A DNA stretch of 64,000 bases from Tribonema minus. Its lineage: Eukaryota; Sar; Xanthophyceae; Tribonematales; Tribonemataceae. Shown in pieces: positions 8,663 to 64,000 of this stretch (the stretch's first letter is position 1; each line of letters opens with the position of its first letter). The notes beneath the pieces were generated by a model. That model was given only the letters and a program-made list of their open reading frames with translations, did no database searches and had not been told where the DNA came from. The position numbers and the translations under genes were made by a program. Location of the stretch: contig JAFCMP010000113.1 of the NCBI GenBank assembly GCA_017506865.1, positions 682,001 to 746,000 on the forward strand, read 5' to 3'.

Positions 8663-11600
8663 TCACTCCTCGTCGACGGCCTCCGCGGCTTCGGCGGCGG
8701 CGGTCGCCGCCTCCGCCTTCTGTGTCTCCGGCGACTTGATGAGGTCGTCGGGGAAGTAGAGGTGCGACGCGACCGCGACAGCAATGCTCAGCACCGCGCA
8801 CACCACAAAGGTGAGGTGGTAGTCGACGAGGGGCAGCGAGTGCGCGCCGGCGATGGAGTACGCGAACAGCGTCGCGCCGAGCGGCGGGCCGATGGCCTTG
8901 GCGGCGCTGCCGGCGGTCATGGCGAGGCCGTTGAGCCCCCCCTGTGGGGTATCACGAATGACAATCATGAAAATTAACGCATGAATCGAGGACAGCGCTG
9001 GGGCCGACAGGCTTCACATTGGTGGCGCTGCCAGCAGTCATGGCGAGGCCGTGGACCCCCCATATGCGAAATCATAAATGGAAATCATGAAGGTTAACGC
9101 ATGAATTGACTAGATTCGCATTAAAATTGCGCTGTCGGCCGTCATGGCGAGGCCGTTGAGCCCCTACTGCGAGGATGCATAAATGAATTCATGAAGGTGA
9201 ACGCGTGGATGGATCGCGGTGTAGAGCCGGGTGGTGAGGTCCTTCAAGTTGGTGGCGGAGAAATTATGGATGACATCATGAAGGTTGACGCCTACATTGA
9301 TCACGGCCGAGTGGCAGGCCAATGGCCTCTGAGTTGGCAGTGCTGCCGGCCGTCATGGCAAGGCCCTTAAGCCCGCCTTGCATGACACTACGATGAAATC
9401 ATGACGATGAAATTCATTCGATTTCATCATGACGATGAAATTCATTCGAGCATGGAGCTGAGTGATGGGCCGTGGCGGTTTGAATTGGCGCCAGTGCCCG
9501 CCGTTGAGCCCGCCCTGCATGAAATCATAAATTAAAAACCAGAAAAGGTGCATGGACGGTGGTAAAGGGATGAATTCATCGGTGTCTCATTTACATCAAT
9601 ATCAGCCTTGCAGAAAGTGATTCAATCACAGCTGAATCTGAGGAGTGCAAAAGAGTATGGGTGCCGGAAGCAACTTGCTGATGTCGATGATGGTGCGGGC
9701 CTCATGGTAAGGCCAGTACGGCTGCTTGGCATGAGTTGCCCCTGTTGCCACGAGCGTCAGAACAATGCTGAAGTTGTACTTCAAGTAAAACAAGATGTCG
9801 GGAGCTGCAACTGCCGCCCCGCATAAATGACTTCGAACTTGAGTTGCATGGAATTAGATGAGAGCGCCAACTGAAGGTGAGCCCTGGCAGGTGCGGAGCT
9901 TAGGGCTAGGGTTGGGGTTAGATTAAATTCTGCCGGCATTCACACATGCTCATGCCATGTGACATGACCTGTATCTATGGTATTGACATGCATACACAAA
10001 CACAGTTTACTCACCCTCTGGTCGCCTTCCACGGAGTTGTTGACGATGAGGAAGATGCTGGGGGTGCAAACACGCACGAGAAGCAACAAAAACATGAATC
10101 AAGAACAGTGCTGTTAGCGCAAAAGCTCGGCCAGAAAGAGGCGGCGTGGCTCAGGGCGTGCGCCCCACGAAATGGGCCGTGAAAAGGGCCGTTGGCGTCA
10201 GGGCCAGGGTTATGAAAGGGACGGTGACCCGAACATCACCTGCACCCTAATAATGGATGCCTCTTCCACGCTGCAATAGCGAGCTCGCTATACAACGAAC
10301 GAGAAATTGTATGACCATGATTGCACGTGCGCAATCCCTCGGAACACTGCAAAGACGTGTGATCTGCATAGGCCTTTACTGGCCCTAACTCTAACCTGAC
10401 CCCCATCCCTAGCCCTGACCCTAACGCAGTGAGGAGCTTATGCGATGCGAATAATCAGAATCAGTGAAACATGCAGCGCACCGCCTGCCGACATGAACGG
10501 GGGCGGGGGCGCAGACACGCGTGCATGAATATATGATAACCATCCCTTGTCACCTAGAGCTCAACGATCTTTTTGATTCGTATTTCATATGAATGAATGA
10601 ATGCATGACTGCGTGAATGATTGCCACCGCAGCATATACATAATTCATGAATGCATGACTGCATGCCTGCGTGAATGACTGCCAGCCCAGCGCGTGCTTG
10701 AATGGATGGACGAATGCAAGACTGCGCGGATGATTGCCATCGCAGCGCGAGAAAAGCGGCATGCGTGCGCTCACCTTGTGAAGATCATGTTGGAGCCGAC
10801 CTTAATGCAGACCTGCGGGCATGGTACAAATCACGGCATGGGTATGTAGGTATGAGGATGACATCCCGACTGAGCATCGCGCACACGTTGCCAAACGAAA
10901 CGAACCTCCCAAACTTGTCTCTTTCGTGCGAGAATTGATGCCCGTCAAAAGCGCTTGGCGTTCACAAGGCTTTCTCGGGTTTGACAGTGTAGGGAAGGTT
11001 CAATGCACTCCTTCCAAAGGAGGGCGATGGCGCAAAGAAAGCAGCATGCGAGAACAGCAGACAGCTTTTGCGGGCCGCCGGTGCTGGCGGAGTGACCGGA
11101 GCATGGGGCATGCACGAGACAAAGGCACACTCACCACACCCAAGAGCTCCACACGGGGCTTTGATTGAAGCGAGGGCAGTGGCAGGGATCTGCAACGCAC
11201 AAACTCTTGCTACACCATAATATTACAGCCCTTGGCCGCTTCGCTGGCGATGCGCTGAGGATGGATGTCGTGAAATCGCTCACTACTTGTCCACAACACT
11301 GCAGGTGCGTCACACCGCAAGTGGGCTGTAGACTACACGCTACTTCGACTACGCATATTTGTACTACTACCTGGCTACTTCAACATTGCTCCTCACACAT
11401 AACCATGGTGGCCACCATCGCTGGCCATGAAAAGCATGCAGCCGCACCGCAGAGCGAGCACACGCGCAAAACAGCGCAATGCCGGCCAGCACGTCAGCGT
11501 CCGCATAAACTCTTTGTACTGAGTTTTTCCATCGAGCAATGGAGGACTACAAACACTACTGCATTCTGCAGAGCCTTGCTACCTTCAATGTTGGAGTTTA

Positions 11601-14600
11601 ATGTGTTCATGACTTGCGTCAGTGGTCATCGTAGCCAGCCGCAGGAGTGCAGAGCCGTCCCACGGCAATGCATGCACACGGAAGTGGGCTTATGCGTAAA
11701 GATGTATTGCCTGTACTTCAATTGAGGATCAGTAGCGTTCTCGTAACCTTCACCCATGTAAGCTCACCATGGTGGTCACCATTGCGGGCCACAGGAGCGC
11801 GGGGCGGCCCCGCAGCAGCGAGCAGGGGGGACAGTGCATACCTCGAGAATAAACCGGTAAACTGTTCATGTATTCATGCTCTAATTACAAATGTCAGTGA
11901 TAGTAGACCACAACGCAATTATCCTGCACATCAACTGCACATCGCTTGCTACTGCAACGTTGGCGGTCGATGGCGTTATCGCAGCTTACCATGGTGGTCA
12001 CCATCGCTGGCCGCAGGAGCGCAGAGCCATCCCCGCAACAGTGCGCACGCGCCCAAGAGGGCTTTCAAATAGAGCTTTTGTCACTCATCTCACTCAGTTG
12101 AAGTGTGCAGTTGGGGATCAGTAGTGTTCTCATAGCCCTAGTCCTGAGAAGTGTGCAGTTGGGGATCAGTGGTGTTTTCGTAACCCTACCCCCAAGCTCA
12201 CCATAGTGGTTACCATCGCTGGCCATAGGAGCGCGGGGCGGTCCCGTAGCAGCGAGCACATGGGGAATAGCGCGTACAGCGGTATCACCACCACGCTCAC
12301 GACCTTGAGCATGCGCACGTAGCTGCGCAGCGCTCAGCACAGAGGCGCACACATACGGGTAACGCAGTCATGTCAATAATGATGATGATAACTAGAATGA
12401 TGTCAATAATGATAAGTTTGTAGCTGCGCAGCGCTCAGCACAGAGGCGCATACATGGGGGCACATGCAATAAATACCAGCAATGGTAGGTAATTGGAATC
12501 ATGTCAATAATGATAGGTAGCTGCGCAGCGCTCACCACACGGGCGCCTACACAGGGGCGTACGCAATCATGTTGATAAAGATGGTCATGAGTCAGCACAC
12601 ACATGGTACTGTAGTACATGCATGAGCGTACGCAATCAATGATGACATAGAAGTACTTCAAAAGAAGTGTGATCTTTATAATGATAATGATGAGTCAGCA
12701 CACACGTGCAATCAATGTTCATGGTAATGTTGAGTCAGCATGCACGTGGTAGTGCATGCATGGTGGAAGCACATGCATGGCCGTCCCCACGCAGTTAACA
12801 GCTGGTCAATGCCCTTCCGAGGTATACATGTGCACTTGGTGAGCATGCGTGAAGCGTGCACCCCTGCCCCCCGCAGATGACTCATGCGGCGGAGTCTAAT
12901 TAGCAGCCGGCAAGTTTATTGTATGTAATTGTAATGTAAGTAAGAGGCGCGCCAGGGAAAGGGCGCGAGCACAATGACGCAGCAGGCACATGCCGCTTCA
13001 CTCATCGCCAATCGTGCTGATTTGAGTTGAAGGCGCCACTCCAGCTGTGAGGTAAAAGCACCAGCGGCGCCTGCCGCAAAGACTTGCCGACACACTGCAT
13101 AGGAAATCATGCTGAAGTAACGTGTACTGTAAAAACACTATGAGTAGGCGGTCCATGACCTCAAAGCGCGCGGGGTAAAGCACGTTGAGCAACTTCAAAA
13201 CCTGCTGCCTGGCGCTGCCTGCCGTTTTCTTGAAGTTCTATAGCGTTGAAGTTGTGCTCTTTGCCTTCTTTGATGCATGCGCATAGGAACAGATACCAGT
13301 TATCGTAGCAGTGGCGTAAGCTTCTAATACAAGAGTACTACACTTGGCTCAGCCCTGCCCTTAGGGTTAGGGTTAGGGCTCAGCCCTGCCCGACAGCTCT
13401 ATCTTGATGCAGCAGAACCCCTGCATCGGGTCCCTTCAGCCCTGATTCCAGTTAACACGCGCAGACCGTGAGCCTCTGACATGCCCTGCATACTCGCGTT
13501 GCGGCCGCGCTCAGCACCTCACCAGACAAATATGTGGAAAATCTGCCCCTTTATCCGCCCTACTGAAGGACCACTTTTGGTCCCACGCAACTTCAACTTT
13601 GCAACTTCTGCAACTGCCGCTCATTGGTCAGTTGCCCCAGCAGCGGGACGCGCTCGTGGACACAATTGCGCAAAAGGAGGCTGCTGCCCGCAAGGCATAT
13701 CAGACTGTGGAAGCCGGTGTGAAGCGCGTATCAGGGGGCAACGATGCGACGACCAAGAAGCGCACCAGGGCGCCGCCCGGCCTGGAAGTCTGCGCCCCCC
13801 GTCGGCAACACCACACGTGCACCAAAGGCCAGAGTAGCGCGCTTGGTCTGCTGCCCGCCAATGAGGCGCACTACACTGATACGCGCTTCACGCCGGCTTC
13901 CACAGCCTGAGACGCCATACGAGCAGTAGCCTCCTTTTGCTTAATCGTGTTCAATGGCGCGTCGCGCTGCTTGAGGAGCACGTCCCTAACCCTAAACCTA
14001 ACCCTAATCCCTAACCCTAACCGTACCCCTGCCGGCGCGCGTCTCCGCCGGATCGCAGGGCAGGGACTGGCGCAGTTGGACTAGGCCAATCACTTTCTGG
14101 AGAGAGCCCTGATTCACGACCACAATATCCTCAGGCCCCTCGATCGGAATGACGTCGACGATCAATGATCGGAATGACGTCGACGATCAATTGATCGTCG
14201 ACGTCATTCCCATTGACGAGCCTGAGGACATGGTGAGGACACAATGTCCTGAGGACATTGTGACATTGTGAGTGAGGACACAATTGCGAGGACACAATGT
14301 ACTGAGGATATTGTGAGGCATTGCCTGAGGGCATTGTGTGTCCTCAGGACATTATGTCCTCACAATGTTCTCAGGCCCCTAAATCGGACTGACGTCGACG
14401 ATCATGGTCTATGGTCGTCGACATCATTCTGATCTATAATCGTCGACGTCATTCCGATCGAGGGGCCTGAGGACATTCTGGTCGTGAATCAGGGCTCTCT
14501 CCAGAAAGTCATTGGCCTACTCCAACAGTAACCGCCATGTAACCGCCATGCCGACATACCCACGTATACCGCCCGCATCGCAGCCACGCTCAGCAGGTCA

Positions 14601-17600
14601 CCAGCGCTGCTGCATGGCGACATCGCATTGCACATCGCGCTCGCAGCGCATGCACGGCATGTGTTCAACCCAGTGCAGAGCCCTAACCCCCAACCCTAAC
14701 CCCCACCCTAACCCTAACCCTAGCCCCATGCCAACTCCAACTCAACTCTACCTACCCCGATAAAATGCGGCATTCGACTCGCCCCAGAGCGCGCCACGTG
14801 CAATTGAACCAGAAACTGAAACCAACCCTAGCCCTAACCTCAACACTACCTACCCCTAAAAGTGCGGCCAGCATATGACTCACCCCAGAGCGCCGGCCAC
14901 GTGCGGATAAACGAGAACCTGGAACGGCGCCGTAAACCAAACCCTAACCCTAAACCCCCCTCAAACCCTAACCCTAACCCCAACCATGGCTCAACTATTT
15001 ACATTAGACTCACCCCAGAGCGCGCGCCACGTGCGGATAGACGAGAAACTGGAACAGCGCCATGAACACGCCAGCCATGCTCAGGACCTGGCCGATTGTG
15101 CCCGGCTGCCAGTCGAGCCCCCCGACTTGCTGAGTCGACAGGGCCCAGAGGGGGTACGTCTCATCGAACATGATCACCTGCAGCAAGGGGAAGATGGATT
15201 CATGCTGTGAATTGGAGCAGACGTGAATCATTCACATGAATTTGAGACAGCGCAACTGATTAGAAACGGTACGTTTCGTCGAACATGATCACCTGCGGCA
15301 AGGGGCGGATGATTTTCATGATGTGAATTGGAGGAGCCGTGAAATCAAATGAATTTGAGGCGGTGCGTCTGATGAACAACACCTGCGGCAAGGCATGGAT
15401 GGTTTTTTATGCTGTGAATTGGAGGAGACGTGAATTATTCACATGAATTTGAGACAATGCCTCTCATGACAAGGCGTGTCCCGTAAACACGGGCCACCTC
15501 AAAGTTCGAGCTGTGGTGTTAGGGTTAGGAATGGGGTTAGGGTGTAGGGGTCAACAGTAGGAAGGCCAGCCCAACTGCCACTTCCGTTTCGCAGCACATG
15601 CAGTTTCCTCGCTGGCAGGCCTTGGCGTTTGACGCATTGGACCGCTAGCTGCCGAGCCGCGATGAACACCTCTGTACTTCGTGTGAACTACTGAGAGTGA
15701 GCCTTGGTTCGGGACTGAATCAAAACAATATACGCTACCAACAATGTATTGTTGCTGCGACACTGTCAGTTTCAACTTGTCAACAACGTGTTCATGCTGC
15801 GAGACTTGCAGTTTCATGCTGCATGACGCAGCTGACACTTGCCAGCACAGTGCGCTGAACAGCTGCAGGAAACTGCATGCGTGCCGCAGGCGTACAATGC
15901 ACCATGTGTGTACCATTCATGTACCGCATGTGCACTGGCGGTGTACTGCCTGTACAGCAGCTGCGCAGCGCCGCTCTGGCACACGACAACATGCTGCCCA
16001 ATAACTACAGCGCCACAGCCGCAGCCGCCAACATCAATGCTGCACCGCAGCTATCGACTACATGCACGCCTCGGGCGCACATGCACTACGAACCGTAATT
16101 TTCCCCCCTAAATTAAACCTGACCACCTGCATAGCCGGAAATGCACAGACCCAAACGGTTCCGCGACGCTCGCCGCTGAGCGCGCACCCACCGCCAGCAA
16201 CGTCAGCGCTCACAGCAGCAACCTCCTGACCCTAACCGTAACCCTACCCCTAGCCCTAGTACAGCAGCAGCACTCACCAGCAGCGACAGCACCATGTACA
16301 CCACCAGCACCCTGCGCGCGGGCGCCACCGACAGCAGCGCCAGCACGCCTGACCTGTGCCCCGCGCCGCCGCCCCCCACGTCCCCCCCGTCCCCCTTCTG
16401 CCCCCTCCCCTCCCCCTTCTCCAGGTCCCCCTCGGAACCGTCCAGGAGCGCGTGCCGCACGGAGCCGTGCTGTGAGAGATGGCGGCCGAACGGCGCCATA
16501 GCACCAGCGCCATTGCGATCGCCATTGCCATTGCCATTGGCGCCGCCGCCGCCGCCGCCGCCGCCACTGCCACTGCCGCCGTTCCGCTGCATGCCGTCGA
16601 GCCTGCGGCCATCGTGGTCGTCATCGCCGTCGTCGTCGCTGTCGTCCGACAGTGCCGCGTCCGCCGTGGACGCGACGGAGCGCAGGCTGTGCTGAGCGCT
16701 GCTGCCGCCGCTGCTGCCGCCGTGGTAGCGCGGCAGCTCCACCGCGGGGTGCTTCGCAGGCAGCGCCGACAGCGCGTCGTCGTCCGCATCTTCAATGGTG
16801 AAGTTGCTGCCGCCGCCGCCGCCGGCGACGCCGCCCTCCGTCGTCGCCACGCGCTGAAACTTGTACTTCAAGTTCTTGCCGCTGCTGCCGGCGGGGGCAG
16901 CGCTCGGCAGCAGCGTGCTGCGCGGCCCAGACGTTTCGGGCACCATAAACCACACGGTGACGAGCGAGAGGACGCCGAATATAGAAGCCAGGGCGTTGGG
17001 GAGGAGGTACGGGAAGCGCTCGAAGGCGCCGCCGCGCGGGAAGACCCCGGGATACTGGTTGCAGGGGTCCGCGAGGAGGCCGCCGAGGGCGGGGCCGATG
17101 ACGAAGCTGATGGACCAGCAGCCTGGGGGGGGGGACAATGATATGAAGACCATGAAATTCTATTGCTATACAAAAAAAAGAACCGTAAATCCAAATGCCG
17201 TCAGATATAATAATGGTGCGGTGGCAGCTATGTCAGCAGCGGGCGCGAAGTCCGCAATCTGGAGTGGGGTGCCGGTGAGCAGCGGGTTTCATGAGTAGCC
17301 CGGGGCGGTAAGCGGCAAGTGTCTGCAAAAGGGCCACACCCGGCACAGGGCCGATGTTCAAGTTGATGGACCAGCCTGCGGCGGGACAACGACGTGACAA
17401 CCATGAGAATCCGGTTGCTATGTGAAAAACTGAACCGTGAAACCCAGCAGATGTACTGACACTTGCTGGGCACAGGCATGGTGCAGTGGCGGCTACGCCA
17501 GCAGCGGGCTGCAAGTATGTCTGCGGTGTGAAGAGGGGTGCCGCGCACGGTAGCGGCGGTCATCTGCGACGGTTCCGTGCCGATGTTGAAGCTGATAGCT

Positions 17601-18676
17601 TCGCACCAGTGCTGCAGGTGAAGAACCAAGGTGAGCTGCTGAAACCTCTAGAGAACATGCAACACCGCACCAGTGCTGCAATTGAAGAGCCAAGGTGAGC
17701 TGCTGAAACCTCCAGAGAACATGCAACATGGACGGGCAGAACAGGCCGTCATACCAGGGCTGCACGCACATCCCTCCCCCCCCCCCCCCATGCGCCCCCG
17801 CCCCCGAATCGCACCTGTGATGTACCCCATGCCCTTGACCTCGTGCGCCTTGCCGCAGATCTCGCTCACGCACACCTTGCACGTGGACACGGTGCCGTTG
17901 AGCGCGCCCAGCAGCAGCCGCATGAGCACCGCCACCCACAGCTCAGTGCTCAGCCCGAACCCCAGCGAGAACACGCAGACGCTCGCGGCGCCGATCAGCA
18001 GCGCCGGCTTGCGCCCGTACTTGTCGCTGAAGCGACCCCACGGGTACGAGCTGGCGAAACGGCCCAGCATGAAGGCCCCCGCGATGAACCCCGCGTAATA
18101 GCCTGCAGGCGGCGGCGGCGGCGGCCGCAGCGGTCGGGGCAGTGCAATGGTGAGGTGTGCTGACGGACTTGCACGCACCAAGAGGGAGAGAGAGTTCAGA
18201 GGGGCATATGGCTGCATATCGGTGGTGCATATCAGTGGTCAAGGCATGCTGCGGACTGTTGCATGGTGCGGGCGCACGCCGTACACGGAAGTGTACAACG
18301 TGCGAAAGCACGCGATGTTTCAGCGTCGAACACAGCCAGTGTGTGTGCACTGATGCGCAGCACTAAGCGTTTTGATCGCCAACAGGCTGCACAAATACTG
18401 CACCTTCTGACATGAATTCTAGTGATCATAGTATCAAGTGAAGGTTCCAATCACTCCTCAAGAGTGGCAGTGCCGGCGCTTGAATCAACGTCAAATGTCA
18501 ACATGCTCACCCGCTTCATCCTTGGATCTGGTGGCACCAAGGTGCTGTACCAGATAACCAACGTACGGAAAAAGGTTAGTAAGAGAATAGCCGTGTGCCA
18601 GCAGCGCCAGACTTAGCGCTATCATGGGCTTGACAGGAAATGGTGGCGCAGCTGGAACTGGCCGAGTGGATGCCAT
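8663..18676 (-). CDS. MFS transporter, ZIFL/TetA-like drug:H+ antiporter family
   Basis: Eight exons on the minus strand: 18676-18511, 18102-17815, 17122-16278, 15177-15014, 12322-12202, 10812-10775, 10057-10015 and 8941-8663. All phases join, giving 647 residues. Exon 1 has FPVKPM...LTNLFPYVGYLVQHLG (TM1). Exon 2 has the MFS motif WGRFSDKYGRKP and an NGTVST...SEICGKAHE segment typical of zinc-induced-facilitator-like carriers. Exon 3 starts with GPALGGLLADP and then has a roughly 200-residue Gly/Ser/Asp-rich insert in the expected central cytosolic loop. Exon 4 has DETYPLWA, exon 7 IVNNSVEGDQR and exon 8 GGLNGLAMTAGSAAKAIGPPLG. Relatives are membrane exporters of metal chelates or organic ions; the substrate is unknown. 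Exons 6 and 7 are only 38 and 43 bases long. The introns are packed with copies of the exon junctions. Confidence 0.88.
8990..9530 (-). repeat. Degenerate copies of the MFS exon 8 acceptor junction
   Basis: The real junction around 8941 reads, on the plus strand, GTCATGGCGAGGCCGTTGAG followed by pyrimidine-tract complement. Related blocks recur near 9040, 9143, 9353 and 9500, each followed by an ATCATAAAT / ATCATGAAGGTTAACGC spacer. Similarity spans coding bases and flanking intron together. Confidence 0.8.
11400..12050 (-). repeat. Degenerate copies of the MFS exon 5 donor junction
   Basis: The real exon 5 end (12202 onward) reads GCTCACCATAGTGGTTACCA on the plus strand. Blocks at about 11990-12040, 11766-11820 and 11402-11460 repeat it (for example GCTCACCATGGTGGTCACCA), retaining the GTGAGC or GTAAGC donor in two of them and about 50 bases of exon. 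Each copy could in principle act as a decoy donor. Confidence 0.85.
12419..12560 (-). repeat. Degenerate copies of the MFS exon 5 acceptor junction
   Basis: The real acceptor (12322/12323) lies in GTAGCTGCGCAGCGCTCAGC. The same block recurs at about 12420 and 12512, each followed by ACAGAGGCGCA/ACGGGCGCC and the ATGTCAATAATGAT spacer. Confidence 0.85.
13645..13972. repeat. Foldback with duplicated coiled-coil-like coding sequence
   Basis: About 90 bases at 13645-13733 match 13878-13972 in reverse complement. Both arms translate similarly (QRDALVDTIAQKEAAARKAY versus a diverged version ending in EAGVKRVS). The spacer is about 145 bases. It sits in intron 4 of the MFS gene on both strands and may be a relic of another gene or transposon. 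Confidence 0.65.
13980..14030 (+). repeat. Interstitial telomere-like repeat, CCCTAA type
   Basis: Runs of CCTAACCCTAA with small variants (CCTAAACC, AATCCC). Similar short runs occur in this intron at 13360-13385, 14680-14725 and 14940-14985. Confidence 0.85.
14081..14520. mobile_element. Foldback/MITE-like element with ~80-base terminal inverted repeats
   Basis: TAGGCCAATCACTTTCTGGA at the left end matches TAGGCCAATGACTTTCTGGA in the reverse complement of the right end. Pairing continues through GCCCTGATTCACGACCA and CCTCGATCGGAATGACGTCG. The interior is made of short palindromes (GTCGACGAT, and GAGGACA...TGTCCTC repeats). No coding capacity. It lies in MFS intron 4. Internal direct and inverted GAGGACA units suggest expansion after insertion. 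Confidence 0.7.
14770..14940 (-). repeat. Two degenerate copies of the MFS exon 4 donor junction
   Basis: The real junction at 15007-15063 reads ACTCACCCCAGAGCGCGCGC then CACGTGCGGATAGACGAG. Copies at about 14877-14937 and 14772-14823 repeat the block, each followed by CCCTAA-type runs. One keeps the GTGAGT donor; the other has CTCGCC in its place. Confidence 0.88.
15285..15470 (-). repeat. Degenerate copies of the MFS exon 4 acceptor junction
   Basis: The real acceptor at 15177/15178 lies in GAACATGATCACCTGCAGCA. Copies occur at about 15285 (GAACATGATCACCTGCGGCA) and 15375 (GAACAACACCTGCGGCAAGG). Each is followed by the same ATGCTGTGAATTGGAG / CATGAATTTGAG intron segment. Confidence 0.88.
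17250..17720 (-). repeat. Degenerate copies of the MFS exon 3 acceptor junction
   Basis: The real block is GGGCCGATGACGAAGCTGAT then GGACCAGCAGCCTGGGG at 17091-17135. Copies lie at about 17348-17385 (GGGCCGATGTTCAAGTTGAT) and 17577-17625 (GTGCCGATGTTGAAGCTGAT), with parallel downstream intron sequence including an AACCGTGAAA/AACCGTAAAT segment. A shorter GCTGCTGAAACCTC-type duplication follows at 17630-17720. Confidence 0.8.
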
Positions 18677-19666: not shown

Positions 19667-22600
19667 ATGAAAGCTCCAAGGGAAGCTGCAAGGCCGGTGT
19701 GTATGAATGGCATTGCCATGGTCTCATCCTATGCCGGTTGCACTGCTGTTGTGCGGCATGTCACAGGCACCGGAGTGGCAGCGGCTCCAGCTCAGCCCGC
19801 GGATGACGCGATAGAGCACGTCGACTGCTTGGTCGTTGGCGGCGGCATTACTGGCCTCACGCTGGCTTTCTACCTCAACCGCCTTGGCGTAGACTGCGTG
19901 GTCGCTGAAGCCAGCGACCGCGTCGGCGGCAGGCAAGCTGCATGAGGCTAGTACGGCAATGCATTCCCTGTGTTTTGAACAGAAGCGTTTGTTCTGCTAT
20001 GGACGTCAGTGCTCAGCACAGCAACCCGTGCTGGCAAGTTCTCTGCACCTCGTGCATGACTACAGACCTGACGTGGTTAGGGAAATTGGATTGGCCAACC
20101 AACTACGAATGTCCGCTTCACCCCCTCCGTTCCTTGCGCGGCTCACCTGCTGACAACCTCAGGGGTAGGGGTAGGATTGCAGCACATGGGTGCGTACAGC
20201 CCACAGAGCGCCGTGACCAGAGCAAGCATTTGCAACGGCGACACTCACTTTCAGAGGCCTGCCAAGCAGTGCTGCCAGGGAATGCCTATGCTACATCTAC
20301 TGCAGTCTCGGCCACGGCTCTTGCAACCACATGCGCTGAGCACGCCGTGTGATGCGCGACGCAGCAAGCCAAGCAGCTGCTCTCGGCGGCCCCCCACCCT
20401 GCGGTAGGCGTGATTGCCGCTTAATGCAGGAGACACTGTGGTGAGGGCACGTTGCGCGTTGAGCACTGACGCAACGGCAGCTGAGTGGCGTTGTGGTTGG
20501 TGAGCGCTGACGTGGCGCTCGCGGAGCGCTGAAATGGTGCATGCTGAGCACTGACATAGCGCTACCGGAGCCACTGCGGTGGGGACATTTCGATCATTTA
20601 GCGCCGACGTGACATCATTACTGAGATGGCAGCTGAGTGACGGTGTGTGGTTGGTGCACATGTGCGCTGACATGGCGCAGGAGACTCTGTGGTGATGACA
20701 TGCTGACCATGATGCATTGAGCGCTGTCGCAATATGGCAGCTGAGTGGCGCTGTGTGTGGTTGGTGAGCGCCGACGTGGTGCCCTTCTGAGCGTCGATGT
20801 GGTGGTCACCGAGGGCTGCCGCTGGTAGGTTAGAGTTGAGGGCAGGATTTGCGTCAGGCCGTCCGCATGTCTTGAGAGATGCACATCCTGCACCTGTTCT
20901 CCTCAGTCGCGCATGGCTCGGTCAACTGAGGTTCGGCTTTGACACAGCCCGCCGCGCGCTCCCCCTACTGCTCCCTTGCATCTTGTGTGCAGCAGCAGAT
21001 CAAGTCTTGCGCACGACTTGACCCGCATTTCAAACTCTACCCCGCCCCTGATGCTGACGCCAATCCTTGACTTCAGTCCCACCATTCCCCTGCCGCATCC
21101 CGCAAGCAGCTGCGCAGCTTCAATACAGGCCGCGAGCGATGCAACTCCCCCCAAACGCCGGCTCCACAGCCAACCCTTGCCCTAAACCTAGCCCTCACCC
21201 CAACCCTACTCACTAAACCCTCCTTGCATCCCGCGCGCGTGCAGCATCGCGACGGGCCGCACGCGCGACGGCTTCCTGTGGGAGGACGGCGCCAGCAGCT
21301 TCCAGCCGACGCCCGACGTGCTGCGCCTCATTACCGACCTGAATCTAACAGACGCGCTGCAGCTGTCCAACGCGCGCGCGCCGCGCTACCTCTACTGGGA
21401 CGGCGCGCTGCACGCGCTGCCGCACACGCTGCATGATGCACTCTTCGAGTTCGGCGCGCTGTCGCGGCGCGGCAGGCTGCGCGCGGCGCTCGGCGCGGCG
21501 GGCTGCGCGCCGCTGCCGCCGCTGCTGCGCACCTGCGGCGGCGGCGGCAGCGGCGGCGGCGGCGGCGCGGCAGAGAGTAAAGATGAGGAAAGCGTGCACG
21601 ACTACGTGTCGCGGCGCTTCGGGCGCGAGGTCGCGGTGCGGCTCGCGGACGCGGCGGTCGGCGGCACGTTCGCAGGCGATACCAGGTGCCGTAGGGTTAG
21701 GGTTAGGGCTAGGTCTAGGATGCGGATCAGGGGCAGGGTTAGCGTAAGCGTGGAGCGGCTTGCAGACGCGGCAGTCGGTGCAAGTTCGCAGGCGATGCCA
21801 GGTAGGGTAGCGTCAGGGTTAGGGCTAGGTCTAGGATGCGGATCAGGGGCAGGGTTAGCGTAAGCGTGGAGCGGCTTGCAGACGCTGCAATCGGTGGCGC
21901 GTTCGCAGGCGATGCCAGGCAGGGGGTGGGATGAGGGCCAGATTTCACATCAACAGGGTGTAGGGTCAGCGGGTGACGCAGAGCGGCTAAAATGTCTGTG
22001 CCTAGTGTCACGCAGTGCCATACTTTGCCTGCTGAGCGCTGCCTTCTTCGAGACCCTTTATTGGTCTTGGGCCCGCGCTTAAGTAGTCATTCGTACACGA
22101 GTACAAGTATGGTGATGCTCTCGAACTGGTTCTGGGCACTGTGATACACGCGCGCGCCCCTGTGTCCACACGCTGTTTTTCTTCCTTCAGTAACATGATA
22201 TTTATATCCTTCCTTTTATCCCCCCCCCTCCCCCTCAACAGCAAGCTGGAGATACGCAGTCTTCCATGCTCCTGTCTCATCATGACGTTCTTCATCTTAG
22301 AATGCTGCCCTTCTGACGCACTTCCCCCCCCCTCCCCCCCGCGCCACCCCCCACCCCCCCCCTTGACAGCAAGCTGGAGATGCGCACCGCCTTTCCCGCA
22401 GTCGTCCACGCCGTAGAGCGCAACCTGGGGCCGCTCCTCATCTGCACCTCCCTCGGGCACCTGCTGGCACGCGCGTACTCCCACGGCAGGCCGCGCCCTG
22501 CAGCGGCGGGCCCCCCTAGGGGGTCCCTCGGCAACTTCGAGGGTGGCATTGCGACGCTCCCATTGGCCGCAGCGCGAGAGCTGGGCCCCCAGCGAGTGCG

Positions 22601-32365: not shown

Positions 32366-32402
<37 letters not shown>

Positions 32403-34657: not shown

Positions 34658-34702
<45 letters not shown>

Positions 34703-45141: not shown

Positions 45142-45145
45142 GTAC

Positions 45146-49300: not shown

Positions 49301-51978
49301 CTTGTGCGGGGGCGTAAGCGCGGCTTGGGGCTAGGGCTACGCATGCCGCAGTGCGTTATAGCGGCTAGGGCTAGGGCATTGAGCACGAGCAAGCTGGCGG
49401 TCATGAAAGTAGGTAGTTCTTCACTTTGGCTGTAGACTTTCAGTGCCTAACAGAGGGCCTTGGAGGCTTGTTCAAGTTTGAAGTTGTTGTTGCGCAACTG
49501 TGGCCGCGCGCATGGGCGACGGACTGCACACCCGTGAGCGCATCGTGTGCGGGCGGTGTGAAAGTGATTTGCAGTTGGCGGAGGCTGCAATTAGCTTCTG
49601 CTGTTGTGGGTCCAGGCTGTCAGTGTGCGACCCGCTTTCCTGGTTGCCAACTGCACTTCAAGTCATGGTCACACTTTACCGCGTTGCCTGCGGCGATGCG
49701 AAAAGGGCGCACCCCACATGCACTCTTGGCTCAATAATCGCAGAGCCCCCCCCCCCCCCCCCCCCCCCTTCCCCCCCCCGCCCTGCCCCTGTCCCAGGTG
49801 CCCTACGCGCCCGAGGGCCAGCAATTTGAGTCGCAGTTCCAGCGCATGCAGCACATGACCACCAACGCCATCGTAATGGGCGGGCCGGAAGCGGAAACCC
49901 CGACGCTCGAACTCCCAACGCCGCCAACCTCAACACCACCCGCCTCGGCCTCTGCGGAGTCAGCGGCAGCGGCGGCGGCGGCAGCAGCAGCGGCGGCGGC
50001 GGCGGCAGCGGCGTCGACGCCGCCGTCCACACCGGCGCAGCGCCTCGGCGGCAGCGCCATAGCGCGCGGCCTGTCGGCATTACGAGATTCGACGGCCGTG
50101 CCGGCGCCGGCGGCGCCGGCAGCGGCAGCAGCGGCGGGCACGGCGCCTGCTGCTGCGGCGGCGGCGGCGGCGGCGGCGGAGGGCGACGGCGTGCAGCCGA
50201 CGGCGCTGGTGATAGACGACACGGGCTCCGTGCGCAAGCTGCTGTGCAAGGTGCTGGAGAGCAAGGGCCTGCGCTGCGACGTCGCGCGCAACGGCCTCGA
50301 GGGGCTGCAGACGATGCGCACGCGCAGGTACGTAGGTATATACTGCGTCCACGCGCTTTAAGCTACCGCCAGCCCTCGCAGAATGTGGCATAAATAATCG
50401 CACACGTGTCTGTGCGTGTGTGATTGCGGTCGACTTGGCGCATCGTTTCACGGCAAGCCTCCGTTGAGGGTTAGGACGAGGGCTGAGGGGAGGGGTGGCT
50501 CATGCACACGCAACTTCAATTTGAAGAGTGGCACCAACACCCAAAGGCCTGGATGGGTGTGTCGCTACCGCTGAGCGCTGCTGCTGGTTCGTAGTGAGCT
50601 CCCGCAGCGCTGCTCAGCAGCAAAAGCACATTTCGTAATACGTCAGCGCATGCACGTGGAGCGGCTCGCAGTTGGGTGCGATGGGCAAGTGTGTTCTGGC
50701 CGCAGGGCTCGGTTTGAGATGAGACGCGCAGGCGCAGGTGGGTAAGTATACGTGCGCGTGATGGCGACGGCTGCGCGCTGCTGCCGTTGAGCAACTGCAG
50801 CGCTCGCAGAGTGTGGCAAACATGATTGCACACGTGTCTGTGTGTGTGATCGCAGTCGGCTCGGCACGTCGCGGCTGCAGCGAAGCCCCACCTTAGGGTT
50901 AGGATGATTGCTGAGGGGGGGGGGTGCGGAGCGGGCTCGTGCACGTGCAACTTCAACTTCAAGTGTGGCACCAGTAGGCCAGACCGGCATTCACGACCAG
51001 CACCGTCTACATGCTTGCGCTCGCACCCTCAACTTCAACAGCAGCATCCACAATTTCAACACTGTCATCTGCGTTCAGCTCAGCTCAGCTGCGCTGAAAC
51101 ACTCCCGCCATCCCGTCACGCCGCGTCGTGCTGTGCGACGCCTTCATGGCCATTTTGCTTGATGCACCTTCAACTTCAACAGCAGCACCCACAACTCCAA
51201 TGCTGCGCTAAAACAGCCCCCCCCCCTCCCCCCGCAGGTACAGCGTCGTGCTGTGCGACGCCGTCATGCCCGTCATGTCGGGCATGGAGTGCACACAGCT
51301 TCTTCAACTTGAACTGCAGCACACACAATTTCACCCCGAAAACCAGCGCGTCCAGCTGTGCTCACACACCGAGTGCATACAGCTTCAACTTGAATGGTAG
51401 CACTCACAACTTCAACACTACCAGCAGCACATCCAGCAGCGCTCACACACTGCTACATACTCCTCGCACCCCACCGCAGGTACAGCGTGGTGATACTCCT
51501 CGCACCCCACCGCAGGTACAGCGTGGTGCTGTGCGACGCCTTCATGCCCATATCACTCAATGCCTCCTCAACTTGAACAGCAGCACGCCACTAACTTCAC
51601 CATTACGACCAGCGCGTTCAGCGGCGCTCACGCGCAATCCCCCCCCCCCCCACACACACACGCAGGTACAGCGTCGTGCTGTGCGACGCCTTCATGCCCG
51701 TCATGTCGGGCATGGAGTGCATACAGCGCTTCCGCCAGTGGGAGGGCGTCCACCGCGCGGAGCAGCCGCGCCAGTTCATCGTCGGCATCTCGTCGTACCT
51801 CGAGGGCTTCGACCGCGACTCCGGCGCGATCGACGCCTTCCTGTCCAAGCCCATCGATCTCAAGTGGCTGCGGGAGCTGCTGCGCATCGCCGTCGCCACG
51901 CAGCAGGCGGCGGCGAACGGCCTGCAGGTCGGCGCGATCGCGCAGTCCACGGAGGAGCTGGGGGTGGGAGGATTGTAA
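46378..51978 (+). CDS. Hybrid sensor histidine kinase: PAS, HisKA, HATPase_c, receiver
   Basis: Five exons, 46378-46562, 46921-47376, 48636-49149, 49798-50327 and 51666-51978, total 665 residues with matching phases. The PAS domain spans about residues 15-115 (SIVTYVTDHNGEVSYVSDAVSRVLGYDPAAL, LIHPDDKSRI). The H-box is TTAHDLKMPVAVF with phospho-acceptor His141. The ATPase part has an N-box (FLNNAHRFTHEGGVRL), a G1-type box (VHDQGIGVDPAQRATLFEPW) and GRLGLYSV. After an Ala-rich linker (about residues 420-515) comes a receiver domain with Asp525/526, phospho-acceptor Asp569 (VVLCDAFMPVMSGME) and Lys623 (FLSKP). No transmembrane segment was seen, so it is likely a soluble PAS sensor. Ligand and downstream phosphotransfer partner are unknown. 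Confidence 0.88.
47775..47950 (+). repeat. CTG-rich repeat in kinase intron 2
   Basis: Interrupted (CTG)n/(GCC)n, similar to the tract at 32.4 kb. It keeps several frames open without any family resemblance. Confidence 0.85.
49240..49330 (+). repeat. Copy of the kinase exon 3 donor region
   Basis: AAGGGGCAGCTGCAGGTACT TCGCCCGTGCCCAGCGCG parallels the exon 3 end (GGGGGAGCTGCGGGTACTTC CCCGCCGCGCAGGGG), followed in both by GCGGGGGC and TTAGGGCTAGGG-like sequence. Confidence 0.75.
50700..50970 (+). repeat. Copy of the kinase exon 4 donor region and adjoining intron
   Basis: About 250 bases after the exon 4 donor (50320-50540: CGCAGGTACG, CTCGCAGAATGTGGCATAAA, GCACACGTGTCTGTG, GTTAGGACGAGGGCTGAGGG) recur at 50720-50970 (CGCAGGTGGG, CTCGCAGAGTGTGGCAAACA, and so on). 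The duplicated unit is mostly intron here. Confidence 0.85.
51115..51660 (+). repeat. Four copies of the kinase exon 5 acceptor junction
   Basis: CGCAGGTACAGCGTCGTGCT GTGCGACGCCTTCATGCCCG (real 51662 onward) recurs at about 51121, 51236, 51478 and 51512. The 51236 copy includes GTCATGTCGGGCATGGAGTG and is in frame with the real exon start. CTTCAACTTGAACAGCAGCA spacers recur between copies. Confidence 0.95.
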
Positions 51979-58407: not shown

Positions 58408-58547
58408 TTTTTATTAATTCTCGCTCATGAGGGCGCGAAAAAGCCCAGATGATTGGCATCTAGCTGTAAGGAATCTACATGTCGAATGACAGTCTGAAAG
58501 TGTCGTAACGACAACCACTCAAACGCCGCCGCCGCCAATGTAAAAAT
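58408..58547 (-). mobile_element. Retrotransposon 3'-end fragment with target duplication
   Basis: Minus-strand 140-base 3' end of the same family, starting at the GGCGGCGGCGGCG region. It is flanked by CTCGGTAC on both sides (58400-58407 and 58548-58555). The right palindrome arm has a single uninterrupted CTCGGTACCTGTA at the equivalent place, which proves insertion. Confidence 0.93.
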
Positions 58548-58737
58548 CTCGGTACCTGTATGTATGACATGACAGTGTACGACATACTAGTGTCCAGGAG
58601 GCGAGGCTGCAAGCACAAGCTAGCAATGAGTTCAAGCAGCCCAGTACAGACCTTGCGACCGTTATGTGCAACATTGGGGACAAGACTAACCCCTTTATCC
58701 CCAGCGTGCAACACACAGATACTTTGTTCTAAGCCAT

Positions 58738-58762
58738 AACCCTAACCCTAACCCTAACCATC
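58738..58762 (+). repeat. Short interstitial CCCTAA array, arm-specific
   Basis: TAACCCTAACCCTAACCCTAAC stands between TTCTAAGCC and CATCCTGACATAGG. The right arm has TTCTAAGCCCATCCTGACAT with no array. The telomeric units were therefore gained in, or lost from, one arm as a block. Confidence 0.92.
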
Positions 58763-59783
58763 CTGACATAGGTCTGAAGGCTACCCTAAAGTGCACTAAC
58801 AACATATGCGCCCGAGTTTGGCAGGACAGTGTCACGCAAAGCAGGCCACATGTCCCTTTTACCAAGTAAATCTTGCGTGCATAGCTGCTGCCAGCCCTGC
58901 AGTGCAGAGGGCCAACCCAGCCCAAGCATGCACTGACCTCTGTAACCACGAAACACGCGAGACACACGTTCATGACGATGAGCATCACCCTCATGATTGC
59001 CTCAGGCAGTAGCTGCTGCGACACACCAGACCCAATGCCAGTGGCTGCCGAACAATCACCATCACATTGTGATGCCCGAAGCGCTATTATGGCTGTTCCT
59101 GACAGTAAACATCAGCACATGCACACAGATCAGTCATGCATTCGTGCGATCAGCAGCTGCCATCGCGAGCCAAACACAAAGGCGAAGACAGCAATGACTT
59201 GTGGTGCACACTGTGGAATCACCGTGGAATGTGCATTCGCAGCAAGACACGATGGGGGTTCACAACGGCAGCTGGCACCGCAATTCCCAACAATCGGTGA
59301 ACACTTCAAAAGCAGAACAGGGTCAGCGTAGCGGGCGGCGCGGCAAGCGCTGTGGCTACAGGGTCGGCGCCTGCGCTGAACGCCGCGCGCGCCCTGCAAG
59401 TGATCCTTCGCCACGTTATTGCTCTGTGTTGCCTCACATGCGTTAGTGCTGTTCTTGGAGTCGAACCCCCCGCCTGCAGCCGAAGTTGAGGTTGTCATCA
59501 CTTGGACGCCACCGTGTTGAAGCACGTTTGTGCATTTGTCTTCAGGTGGACGACGCTGCGGCAGTTTCACTTGCACAAACACGCCGGCACAAGCATGACA
59601 TGAGCACCCCTGAAAGTGCTCATTGCATTTCAATGTGGCTGCAGCATTGGATAACAGGTGCGCTTATAACTTGTGCAGCGTCGTGACGGTTGTGTGCTGC
59701 GCAGACACACGACTGCTGCCGCAAGGAGTCATGTACCTCGTTCCACAAACTGTTGTGTGTGTGCGCACGCAGTCGAGGGCCCC

Positions 59784-60026
59784 ATGTCAAAGTTCTTCCG
59801 TGCCATATTTGGCCATGGATTGGACCAAGACCGCCGCTGGGACGATGTGGCAGACATCGCGTTTGCGAGGGTGCTTGAGCATGCAAAGAAGGCTAAGGGC
59901 CTTAGCGGGGAGGAGGTGGATGCGTGGTTCAAAACGTACCGCAAACTGGTGAAGGAGGCAGAGGTGGGGGCAGAGGTGGGCCAGGCCCTGGCTGCGTATG
60001 CCCTCCGCGAAAGCGGGCGCGGCTGA
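59784..60026 (+). CDS. Hypothetical small protein, palindrome left-arm copy
   Basis: An 80-residue frame from ATG: charged and helical (WDDVADIAFARVLEHAKKAKGLSGEEVDAWFKTYRKLVKEAEV). No family recognised. The mirrored frame in the right arm is open further upstream. Here a two-base GT expansion just before the ATG (GTGTGTGTGCGC) breaks that longer frame. Observed differences between the copies are mostly amino-acid changing, so coding is doubtful. Confidence 0.3.
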   Translation: MSKFFRAIFGHGLDQDRRWDDVADIAFARVLEHAKKAKGLSGEEVDAWFKTYRKLVKEAEVGAEVGQALAAYALRESGRG

Positions 60027-60326
60027 AGGCGAGTGCACCTCGCGCCGCAGACATGCACATATTTCACATCACATTTTGCCGCCACCCATACTGCAGGTGC
60101 ATTATCAAGTCAAACCTGCCCCATCACGTCTTGTGTACAGTATGTACATAGCTTACACAGAACTCTCGGGGGGGGTGGGGTATGGCAATCAATAATGTGT
60201 GTAAGCTATGTACAGTACACAAGACGTGATGGGGCAGGTTTGACTTGATAATGCACCTGCAGTATGGGTGGCGGCAAAATGTGATGTGAAATTTGTGCAT
60301 GTCTGCGGCGCGAGGTGCACTCGCCT

Positions 60327-60620
60327 TCAGCCGCGCCCGCTTTCGCGGAGGGCATACGCAGCCAGGGCCCGGCCCACCTCTGCCCCCACCACTGCCTCCT
60401 TCACCAGTTTGCGGTACGTTTTGAACCACGCATCCACCTCCTCCCCGCTAAGGCCCTTAGCCTTCTTTGCATGCTCAAGCACCCTCGCAAACGCGATATC
60501 TGCGACATCGTCCCAGCGGCGGTCTTGGTCCATTCCGTGGCCAAATATGGCACGGTAGAACCTCGACACGGGGCCCTCGACTGCGTGCGCACACACAACA
60601 GTTTGCGGAACGAGGTACAT
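60327..60620 (-). CDS. Hypothetical small protein, palindrome right-arm copy
   Basis: A 97-residue frame from ATG (MYLVPQTVVCAHAVEG) that contains the same helical segment as the left-arm frame (DQDRRWDDVADIAFARVLEHAKKAKGLSGEEVDAWF). The frame is open for another 36 codons upstream without an ATG. Function unknown; it may be chance or part of a spliced gene. Confidence 0.3.
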   Translation of the reverse strand: MYLVPQTVVCAHAVEGPVSRFYRAIFGHGMDQDRRWDDVADIAFARVLEHAKKAKGLSGEEVDAWFKTYRKLVKEAVVGAEVGRALAAYALRESGRG

Positions 60621-61675
60621 GACTCCTTGCGGCAGCAGTCGTGTGTCTGCGCAGCACACAACCGTCACGACGCTGCACAAGTTGAAAGCGCACCTGTTAT
60701 CCAATGCTGCAGCCACATTGAGATGCAATGAGCACTTTCAGGGGTGCCCATGTCATGCTTGTGCCGGCGTGTTTGTGCAGGTGAAACTGCCGCAGCGTCG
60801 TCCACCTGAAGACAAATGCACAAACGTGCTTCAACACGGTGGCTGACCCTGTTCTGCTTTTGAAGTGTTCACCGATTGTTGGTGCCAGCTGCCGTTGTGA
60901 ACCCCCATCGTGTCTTGCTGCGAATGCACATTCCACGGTGATCCACAGTGTGCACCACAAGTCATCACTGTCTTCGCCTTTGTGTTTGGCTCGCGATGGC
61001 AGCTGCTGATCGCACGAATGCATGACTGATGTGTGTGCATGTGCTGATGTTTACTGTCAGGAACAGCCATAATAGCGTTCGGCCATCACAATGTGATGGG
61101 ATTGTCCGACCACTGGCATTGGGTCTGGTGTGTCGCAGCAGCTACTGCCTTATCATTAGGGTGATGCTCATCGTCATGAACGTGTGTCTCGCGTGTTTCT
61201 GGTTACAGAGGTCGGTGCATGCTTGGGCTGGGTTGGCCCTCTGCACTGCAGGGCTGGCAGCAGCTATGCACACGAGATTTACTTGGTAAAAGGGACATGT
61301 GGCCTGCTTTGCGTGTCCTGCCAAACTCGGCGTATATGTTGTTAGTGCACTTTAGGGTAGCCTCAGACCTATGTCAGGATGGGCTTAGAACAATGTATCT
61401 GTGTGTTGCACGCTGGGGATAAAGGGGTTAGTTTGTCCCCTATGTTGCAAATAACGTTCGCAAGGTCTGTACTGGGCCGCTTGGGGTCATTGCTAGCTTG
61501 TGCTTGCCTCGCCTCCTGGACTGGCACTAGTATGTCGTACACTGTCATGTCATAAATACAGGTACCGAGGTGCATTGTTTGTCAAGAAGGCATTGGGATG
61601 CAGGCATCAACATAACCTGGTGTGTCGACAGGTACCGAGATGCGTTGTACCGACAACACCCGGGCGCACAAACGC

Positions 61676-62656
61676 AGGTGCACCTGATAGTTGCAGTGGC
61701 AGCACGCCTGCAGCCATGTAGCAGCAGGCACGTGCACAGCAACGCTCAACACTGCAGGCGCCATGTTGATGACAAATGACATCTGCTCATTTATAAGTGC
61801 CGCTGTCGCGCCGTGCAGCGCGCGACCGGCACACAATCTTATACAGAAGCCCCCCCACACGCTACCCGCCCCCGCTGCTGCACGGTCGCGGCACATGAAT
61901 AAACCATCTGTGAAGCCACAGCGCCACTTGTGCGGCGCACACACTCTGTGCGCTCGAGAGCCATCGCCCCCCCCTCCCCCCTCCCCCCCCCCCTTCCCCT
62001 TGTGTGGTGACGATCAGCACCCCCCACACAACTGCTGCTTAGTGACCCCTACTGGCGGCCGGGCGCAATGCCGGGCGGCGCAAAGAGGGTGTGAATGAGC
62101 CCCCTCCCCACTTTCCTCCAGCGGAAGTGCGAAGAGCGGGCGGGCCAACCGGAAAGTGGAGCGAAACCGCCATGTGCTGCGCGAGAGGTCCCGCAGCGGC
62201 GGCGTGCGCGCGCTGCGCAGCGGCGGCGACGCCGTTCCGCCGCAGCAGCAGCCGCCGGCGCGGCGGCGGCGGCGGCGGCGACCGTCCTTATATCGACGAG
62301 CAATGCATACAGGCGCGCGCTCTCTCTCGCGAGGGCGCGCGAGTGCGGGAAGTTTCAGTTACAGGCGATCGTGTGCGCTGCAGCCGAGCAGCGGCGGCAG
62401 CCCCGTGAGGCGGCGCCGGTGCCGCAGCCGCGCGCAGCTCTACTGTCGCCGCCGCCGCCCGCTGCCGCCGCCGCCGCTCCCGCCGCCGCCGCCTCCGAGC
62501 TGCCGTTTTGCGGCATGCAGCTGCAGCATTGGCGGCGCAGGCTGCAGCTGCCGCAGCAGCGGCTCGGCGCTGCCGGCCATGACGCGGAAGGAGCGCAGCC
62601 CTGCTGCTGCTGCGGCGGCGGCGCCGGGCGGCGGCGGTGGCGGCAGCGCATGCGGG
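61676..62656. other. No gene recognised; 3' flank of the TAZ gene
   Basis: A C-rich tract at 61969-62000 and a strongly GC-rich, CGG-repeat-bearing block at 62200-62650 keep many frames open on both strands (Arg-, Ala- or Pro-rich), which are not credible genes. The block is directly downstream of the TAZ gene stop. Confidence 0.45.
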
Positions 62657-63744
62657 CTATGATGCGCCGTTGCTGTCACCGCCGCCGCCTGCGAGCGCCG
62701 CGCGCGCGCGCTCGCGGTACCACTCGTTCATGTGCTGGCGGCGGCGGTCGTCCATCTGCTGCTGCTGCTCGACCATGGCGCGCATGCGCTGGCGCATCTG
62801 GTTGCACTGCGGCACGGAGCAGCCGTCCTTCTTGCACTGCCGCGCGTGGATCTGGCGCGCACGTGCGCACGAGGGGGGCGCATGGGGGGGGGGGGGGGGG
62901 GGGGGGGTGAGAGTTTGTCACCACCACGCATTCACAGCATCTTGATGCGTCAAGGCTGGGGCTGCGCAACGAGGAGAACTGTGAGCTGGTGCTCGCAATC
63001 GCCTCTGGGAGTGCGCGTTGCATGATGTGCTGCGGTACTGCAGGCGGCCTCCACACTCTCTGTGGTGTATACTCAAGTATGTACATCTACACAGCAGGAT
63101 GCAACGCTTGCGAGTGTCATGCTGCCCGCGGCTCTGTTGTGTTTTGCAGCTGCCCGATGTTCTCCCATGTCATCCAAAGGAGCGCTGCTTGCTGTGCGCC
63201 GAAAACAACAGACGACTTCAGAAGCTTCACTTCTTCGCAACACTGGTGGTCTACAGCAGGTCAGGCAGTGACACGCGCAGAGCGCAAAGGCGGCGCTACA
63301 GCACTTCAACACACATGCATGCAAGCAAAGCGCTGCGCGCGTATTGAGCGTTGGCTCACCAACAGCAGCGCGAAGACGCGTTGCAGACGTCACAGCACTT
63401 TCAACATACACTTTTAAAAACTGAGCACTGCGCGCGTGTTGAGCGTTTTGCAGTACAGCACTTCAACCTACACCTGAACTGAGCGCTGAGCGCGTGTCGA
63501 GCGCTGACTCACCGACAGCAACGCGACGACGCGCGCTGCAGACGTCACAGCACTTCAACATACACCCGAGCGGAGCACTGCACACGTGTTGGCGCTACTT
63601 CAACATATACTTTTAAAAGCTGAGCGCGCTGAGCACGTGTGATGAGCGCTGACTCACCGACAGCAGCGCGAAGACGCGTTTGCAGACGTCGCACTGCGCG
63701 CCCTGCGCGCGCGCCGGGCACGACTGCCCGTGCGCCAGCAGCGC
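62657..63744 (-). CDS. TAZ zinc-finger protein, 3' part
   Basis: Two exons on the minus strand, 63744-63658 and 62851-62657, join in phase 0. Exon 1 encodes ALLAHGQSCPARAQGAQCDVCKRVFALLS and exon 2 IHARQCKKDGCSVPQCNQMRQRMRAMVEQQQQMDDRRRQHMNEWYRERARAAL. Together they give the His/Cys pattern of a TAZ domain (H-x3-C, C-x2-C, H-x3-C-x4-C-x4-C with SVPQC), the zinc-binding module of CBP/p300-type coactivators and plant BT proteins. The acceptor is CACACAG|GCG and the donor TCG|GTGAGT. The 5' part of the gene is not in view and probably lies beyond the right edge. Residues after the finger are Gln/Arg-rich. It may be a CBP-like acetyltransferase or a smaller TAZ protein; the visible part cannot decide. 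Confidence 0.75.
62884..62907 (+). repeat. Poly-G tract in the TAZ intron
   Basis: On the coding (minus) strand this is a poly-C tract about 35-55 bases upstream of the exon acceptor, the same arrangement as in the MFS, beta-helix, PPOX and kinase genes. Confidence 0.9.
63340..63640 (-). repeat. Copies of the TAZ exon donor junction
   Basis: The real junction at 63648-63692 reads GCGCTGACTCACCGACAGCA GCGCGAAGACGCG on the plus strand. Blocks near 63350 (GGCTCACCAACAGCAGCGCG) and 63508 (GACTCACCGACAGCAACGCG) repeat it, with CAGACGTCACAGCACTTCAA and ACATACACTTTTAAAA spacers. A copy of the opposite (acceptor) junction appears at 63968-64000 (GCAGCGCCTGCGTCGGGCAG). Confidence 0.9.
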
Positions 63745-64000
63745 CTGTGTGCGGCAGCAGAAGAGGAGCAGCCCGAGGAACCATGTCAGTGCGGTGCGCG
63801 GAACAGTCAGAAAGACGCTCTCAGACCGCGAACGAGAAGGTTAGAGATTGACGTCTGCGTCGTGCTTCGAAGTGCGAGGGGGTGAGCTGCGTGCCAATGC
63901 GCGGCGCGGACGCGCGAGAGAGAGTCTGATGCTGGTGGCATGTGGCGCGCCTGATGCGCGACTGCGAGCAGCGCCTGCGTCGGGCAGCGGAAGAGGAGCC

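Follow-up and report, generated by a model that had tools for sequence, protein, structure and literature searches.

Introns of Tribonema minus carry local arrays of copied exon–intron junctions

Where an intron's sequence came from usually cannot be traced; in a 64-kb stretch of the genome of the xanthophyte Tribonema minus it is visible, as copies of the exon edge and its splice site lying inside the intron. This stretch, hereafter the window, spans positions 682001–746000 of contig JAFCMP010000113.1 (C113) in a 158.2-Mb assembly of 554 contigs from a eukaryote with intron-rich genes; coordinates below are positions within it unless another contig is named. A sequence-only reading of the window had described, in at least five genes, introns holding runs of degenerate copies of the adjacent splice junction that invariably run into the intron while a single exon stays intact; it speculated that replication slippage or repair anchored at junctions, perhaps associated with R-loops or lariats, might produce them. 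Do such arrays occur beyond the window, are they truly concentrated at junctions and what would produce them? Here, we confirm that arrays of junction copies are real and extend beyond the window, and we argue that recurrent tandem duplication of about 130 bp across exon–intron junctions probably lengthens introns in this genome.

Junction copies in the window and at other loci

The clearest case in the window is a donor array on the forward strand (36319–36921), in a gene labelled beta-helix by the sequence-only reading, where the end of an exon and its GT donor recur four times downstream at a spacing of 122–138 bp. The real junction (36319–36393; exon end 36372, junction 36372/36373) is followed by four decayed copies (36441–36515, 36595–36654, 36715–36773 and 36847–36921), which are 0.86–0.87 identical to it. 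A genome-wide search with 36319–37019, skipping very common words, returned one match only; Rfam, searched with the whole window at gathering scores, returned none. Comparison of the window with itself (blastn, pairs within 2.5 kb, low-complexity sequence excluded) yielded 90 local repeat pairs on the same strand and nine on opposite strands. Families with a period of 40–300 bp numbered 29 in 45.7 kb of the window and zero in the 18.3 kb outside spliced genes—a division that represents our rough judgement—and these 18.3 kb still contain 25- and 29-bp doublets and one pair 584 bp apart.

Outside the window, we sampled chaperonin, HSP70 and kinesin genes located through a profile search of the same genome. 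Gene models built with a spliced protein-to-DNA aligner, purpose-written for this analysis, provided 117 introns at 20 loci, comprising set 1 (13 loci, 85 introns) and a held-out set (seven loci, 32 introns). Eight of 93 introns were removed from set 1 because they were too short or involved doubtful mini-exons. Fourteen loci were modelled for the held-out set, of which seven were left out for low scores or doubtful exons, and doubtful first exons or mini-exons were also removed from the seven kept. A junction was scored as copied when a 60-bp junction probe matched within the adjacent intron with a Smith–Waterman score of ≥40.

By this measure, local same-strand copies lie within predicted introns of conserved genes. 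Copies in the adjacent intron were found for 38 of 117 donors (19/85 in set 1, 19/32 in the held-out set) and 25 of 117 acceptors (13/85 and 12/32). Reverse complements of the junction probes found no copies (0/234), comparison of set-1 junction probes with introns of other genes was equally negative (0/3400) and a single mid-exon probe out of 85 in set 1 had a copy. The claim that introns carry local junction copies is confirmed both in the window and among the 117 introns of the 20 other loci, and our data support the description of a unit that is local and different at every junction, with no fixed length.

Assembly error or mis-joined haplotypes are an extremely unlikely source of these copies, which in set 1 differ from the real junction by ~5–26% (exon and intron parts together) and keep the exon part better than the intron part; moreover, junction families are present in 13 of the 20 loci, on several contigs. 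Introners and introner-like elements, described as element copies inserted at new sites (PMC9860276, PMC4457414), likewise multiply intron sequence, whereas the Tribonema unit is local and different at each junction. We rejected them as candidates, as similar sequence at many loci was found neither in the set-1 cross-gene probe comparison nor in the genome search with 36319–37019, which skipped very common words.

Junction families are spread very unevenly between genes. There are none in CCT beta (10 introns) or in a pair of HSP70 genes on contig C522 (11 introns), and 13 in CCT epsilon (11 introns). The two C522 genes (L058/L059; C522:954201–958200 and C522:981301–985300) lie in opposite orientation; their fifth intron is identical save for a one-base gap and their first intron aligns at 83%, a contrast that suggests gene conversion.

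Excess of families at junctions

A tally by locus gives 80 repeat families at the sampled loci (44 in set 1, 36 in the held-out set); a tally by exon–intron–exon stretch gives 79. A family was called a junction family if it included ≥10 bp of exon, and abutting if it lay ≤15 bp from the junction. On this basis, 63 of the 79 are junction families (38 donor, 25 acceptor), eight abut a junction and eight are truly interior, three of the latter within one 2-kb intron. Counted per locus, junction families account for 31/44 in set 1 and 33/36 in the held-out set; by type, they account for 27/41 two-copy families and 36/38 arrays. Neutral tandem duplication predicts families in proportion to intron length, and this is not what we find: random placement of the same spans puts 25.7 of 79 at junctions (z 9.7) and 11.4 of the 41 two-copy families (z 5.6). 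The junction fraction per gene averages 0.71 ± 0.08 across the 14 loci with families, with leave-one-out values of 0.77–0.83. The sequence-only reading had made its case depend on tandem duplications being more frequent at junctions than elsewhere, and neither the few interior families in the sample nor the 18.3 kb of the window outside spliced genes refutes it.

Could this excess arise without any preference for junctions? If neutral tandem duplication were uniform and exonic events were purged, the junction excess would simply reflect detection, the exon copy being exempt from decay. The one-sided decay of the exon part, the flat profile of copies along introns and the sufficiency of selection alone to account for one intact exon are all in keeping with such a history, which we nevertheless consider unlikely on the strength of simulations. 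Uniform duplication simulated as single events, under identical detection, placed 34–43% of families at junctions, according to the oldest age allowed. A forward simulation that included purifying selection and neutral decay, again under identical detection, placed 37–39% there, with few arrays. Homology-driven array expansion was tried as a source of the junction share and rejected, giving 33–38% and no rise. Against this simulated range of 33–43%, the observed share is 80%, and multi-copy families make up 38 of the 79, compared with 0–7 of 21–56, or ~5 of 70, in simulation.

Two further comparisons point the same way. When exons are masked, which puts the decay of the two copies on an equal footing, 33 of 61 families abut a junction, compared with 21–25% simulated. 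Even if introns were once shorter and survival carried a two-fold bonus—by our reasoning the maximum attainable from losses hitting both copies equally—uniform duplication is expected to yield 43.5 ± 4.1 junction families of 79, compared with the 63 observed, and 21.8 junction arrays, compared with 36 of 38. Concentration at junctions, as originally claimed, exceeds every uniform null that we ran, and the sample already points to a higher density of duplication at junctions than in intron interiors.

Some of the enrichment could reflect introns that were shorter at the time of duplication. Taken to its full extent, this would mean that introns were once short (~100–200 bp) and have grown recently by uniform tandem duplication, with no junction bias needed, because nearly any 130-bp unit in a short intron must include a junction. 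When all introns were started at 150 bp in simulation, junctions held 0.74 of all families and 0.89 of those with multiple copies, compared with 0.80 and 0.95 observed. Array-bearing introns are also longer: those with junction families have a median length of 798 bp (n = 48), compared with 475 bp in those without (n = 69; p 7e-10), and at one HSP70 intron position two paralogues free of families have 319 and 330 bp, whereas a third has 957 bp, of which families make up 89%. However, the simulated introns reach a final mean length of only 298 bp (451–594 bp in an exon-masked run), below the mean of 688 bp for the 117 real introns. In the 80 kb of intronic sequence, 75% is free of families, and introns lacking junction families already have the median of 475 bp given above. 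Two-copy families, for which earlier intron length was taken as present length minus one unit, fall at junctions in 27 of 41 cases, compared with 11.4 by placement and 15.5–21.8 after correction (z 1.7 at the strongest). We rate recent uniform growth from short introns as rather doubtful.

Decay of the copies and a route of intron growth

Apart from four longer ones, periods range from 62 to 255 bp, with a median of 129 bp and an interquartile range of 106–158 bp. They show no preference modulo 3 (27/25/27) and therefore no sign of a reading-frame filter; units penetrate the exon by 10–135 bp, most often by 40–60 bp, a breadth that speaks against exact cutting at splice sites.

Identity between junction and copy on the exon and intron sides was 0.912 and 0.758 (n = 89), compared with 0.87–0.90 and 0.76–0.79 in neutral simulation. 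The exon parts at first seemed conserved in excess; the excess shrank, without vanishing, once neutral simulations were passed through the same pipeline. The copies decay nearly as neutral DNA, with exon parts slightly better kept; the unconstrained decay expected of neutral tandem duplication combined with purifying selection is what we see. Copies nearer the junction had been said to be better preserved, which holds for a majority (26/36 pairs, set 1 only, after removal of 20 of 71 rows as self-overlap artefacts) and fails as a strict rule.

Might the copies be functional, as alternative exon ends, decoy splice sites or duplicated exons under selection? Most keep their splice-site dinucleotide (GT in 62/77 donor copies, AG in 35/41 acceptor copies), some exon parts are nearly identical despite differing flanks, and the average exon part has fared somewhat better than its counterpart in neutral simulations. 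Yet by our arithmetic drift at 0.12 per site would leave roughly this retention, and in 62 of 122 copies the gaps of the exon part add up to a total not divisible by 3. Differences in the exon part at codon positions 1, 2 and 3 (0.123, 0.115 and 0.198; 8195 bp, 122 copies) follow a neutral pattern, positions 1 and 2 fitting one-sided and position 3 two-sided decay. A conserved exon part beside a lost intron flank was seen in 6 of 89 cases, compared with 1–6% in simulation. Selection for function is, on these figures, a very unlikely explanation.

We propose instead that short-range tandem duplications, usually of 60–200 bp (median 129 bp), would recur in spliced genes, mostly across junctions. 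The exon-proximal, outermost splice site would stay in use and leave the protein unchanged, while the inner copy of the exon end and splice site would turn into intron and decay unconstrained; repeated events would extend the intron and leave an array. A duplication that spans a junction would be tolerated because splicing holds to the outermost site, which we infer to be the one in use, and the inner copies become intron. From the sequence-only reading, the local, junction-specific and junction-concentrated units survive, as does the pattern of duplications running into the intron and leaving one intact exon. The special process invoked for direction and intactness is unneeded, because purifying selection on exons and use of the outermost splice site suffice.

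The mutation itself may arise at local DNA breaks, by fill-in or by template slippage. Small tandem duplications are known to result from fill-in at breaks (Schimmel et al., 2021; PMC8355091), and the likeness lies in the local head-to-tail duplication of short segments, a known repair product; the abstract of that paper draws no link to splice junctions. Young exact doublets are few among the listed gaps between copies. As to the junction preference, our first guess is that exonic or junction DNA is mutationally biased towards duplication; the past shortness of introns may add to this. If the excess is mutational, there would be a process that couples gene structure to local DNA duplication. 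The bolder idea that junctions are duplication hot spots in this lineage, through a process linked to exonic chromatin, transcription or splicing, and that this is a main force on the intron length of its genes, is one that we lean slightly against.

Several observations weigh against recurrent junction-spanning duplication as the explanation. Our sample consists of 20 loci from three protein families, chosen by ourselves, and the spliced junction at each array was inferred. Loci are heterogeneous (chi2 58 on 19 df), and tests treating families as independent therefore overstate significance. For two-copy families, the strongest correction leaves only 27 against 21.8; the 150-bp growth model by itself brings 0.74 of families to junctions and, with exons masked, 0.40–0.49 compared with 0.54 observed. 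In set 1, the profile within introns is approximately flat, with mostly 10–18% of 40-bp windows copied up to 1.5 kb, 5–11% next to junctions (≤80 bp) and zero beyond ~120 bp into exons. Interior 60-bp probes have copies in 197 of 1043 cases (19%), compared with 63 of 234 junction probes (27%). The exon side is better kept than simulated, as noted above, and copy-to-copy exon identity is 0.885 (n = 72), compared with 0.76–0.86 simulated. The flat probe profile is not decisive, because most intron-internal copies belong to junction arrays; an even spread of duplications through introns was dropped once family-level counts placed these copies there. Taking all this into account, we still judge it probable that recurrent tandem duplication across junctions lengthens introns.

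That introns can arise by tandem duplication is already an established model (PMC4974935, PMC3443670). In the Rogers model, an intron is created by tandem duplication of an AGGT-containing exon piece. This shares the duplication step with our proposal and has documented cases in the same papers. It predicts, however, a family linking donor to acceptor, whereas the junction families here divide into donor and acceptor types and none of the 79 reaches both; introns too old to retain homology could still fit, but as an account of the arrays it is highly unlikely. In potato RdRp, a single tandem duplication crosses an intron–exon boundary (Ma, Lan & Niu, 2016; PMC4974935). That case resembles ours in being an intragenic tandem duplication that crosses a boundary and whose extra copy is absorbed by splicing; there, one event gave a new intron, whereas in Tribonema repeated events would lengthen existing introns whose ends remain unlinked. 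Within-gene segmental duplications, some including intron sequence, are described as common in PMC4974935, and internal gene duplication (Gao & Lynch, 2009, as cited in PMC4974935 and PMC3443670) is similar in being segmental duplication within genes. Our search of the open-access literature found no report of genome-wide junction-centred arrays lengthening introns, which is no proof of absence. Nor do we know of any claim in the internal-gene-duplication literature that such arrays are a main source of intron length.

The arrays suggest an ongoing route of intron growth. Their copies span the range from near-identical to barely recognisable, which makes growth measurable in terms of rates, unit sizes and decay, and they offer natural tests of how the spliceosome chooses among near-identical sites.

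Further arrays and features of the window

Further families occur on the forward strand of the window. An acceptor-type family at 38522–38882 has copies at 38571, 38702 and 38837 (spacing 131 and 135 bp), the real junction presumably being the copy assigned by the rule of the sequence-only reading. Donor-type arrays occupy 38955–39755 (GATGAG|GTACGC; copies at 39035, 39215, 39333 and 39620, with a partial one at 39486) and 40824–41416 (period 171 bp, the unit being an open frame followed by a GTGAGT-like donor), and another array lies at 41722–42485, with copies near 41743, 42049, 42254 and 42392. In a predicted protoporphyrinogen oxidase gene, a family with a period of 117 bp (88.7%) covers donor 21685 (21632–21924) and an array, partly CCCTAA-like, covers acceptor 25507 (24781–25548); the spliced alignment behind this weak gene model also yielded doubtful mini-exons. 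A response-regulator-like acceptor array spans 51023–51727, with the exon start at 51666 and partial upstream copies near 51123, 51233, 51480 and 51511. These copies are shorter, degenerate pieces of the exon start, and a perfect 36-bp doublet is present at 51457–51528; the exon at 51666 matches Pfam Response_reg with an E-value of 5.3e-5, under the curated cut-off.

Among the five genes in which arrays had been reported, the donor array in the so-called beta-helix gene, the response-regulator-like acceptor array and, on its weak model, protoporphyrinogen oxidase bear the report out. The beta-helix name is that reading's own and lacks Pfam support, as the open reading frames submitted matched no family. 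On the reverse strand, a repeat family lies at 8898–9374, in a region assigned to an MFS gene by the same reading, and a 64-bp doublet (93.7%) at 17602–17728 sits beside an MFS exon, with MFS_1 recognised by Pfam in 17651–18238. A multi-copy family without assigned strand lies at 63297–63693, in a gene whose TAZ label comes from that reading alone.

A 5.3-kb locus pair on contigs C179 and C90 (L065/L066) is 95.9% identical and lies beside a tandem array that matches in many registers; six of its 19 gaps are ≥7 bp, the longest being a 29-bp tandem duplication, numbers too few to use. Within the window, a 404-bp inverted duplication (878–1281 and 2267–2670; 99% identical) repeats part of an intradiol dioxygenase-like gene, and a reverse-transcriptase open reading frame (Pfam RVT_1 in 3466–4710), followed by an overlapping alanine-rich frame, occupies 3466–6709. 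A large inverted repeat (90%) at 58548–61569 surrounds a palindrome at 59508–60843 (94.6%) and has a mobile-element- or hairpin-like look. An imperfect 450-bp palindrome with internal 25-bp repeats (14075–14526) lies beside CCCTAA-like tracts. Telomere-like CCCTAA/TTAGGG tracts at 13984–14030, 14681–14727, 25282–25351 and 37260–37305 lie away from contig ends, and some are probably intronic.

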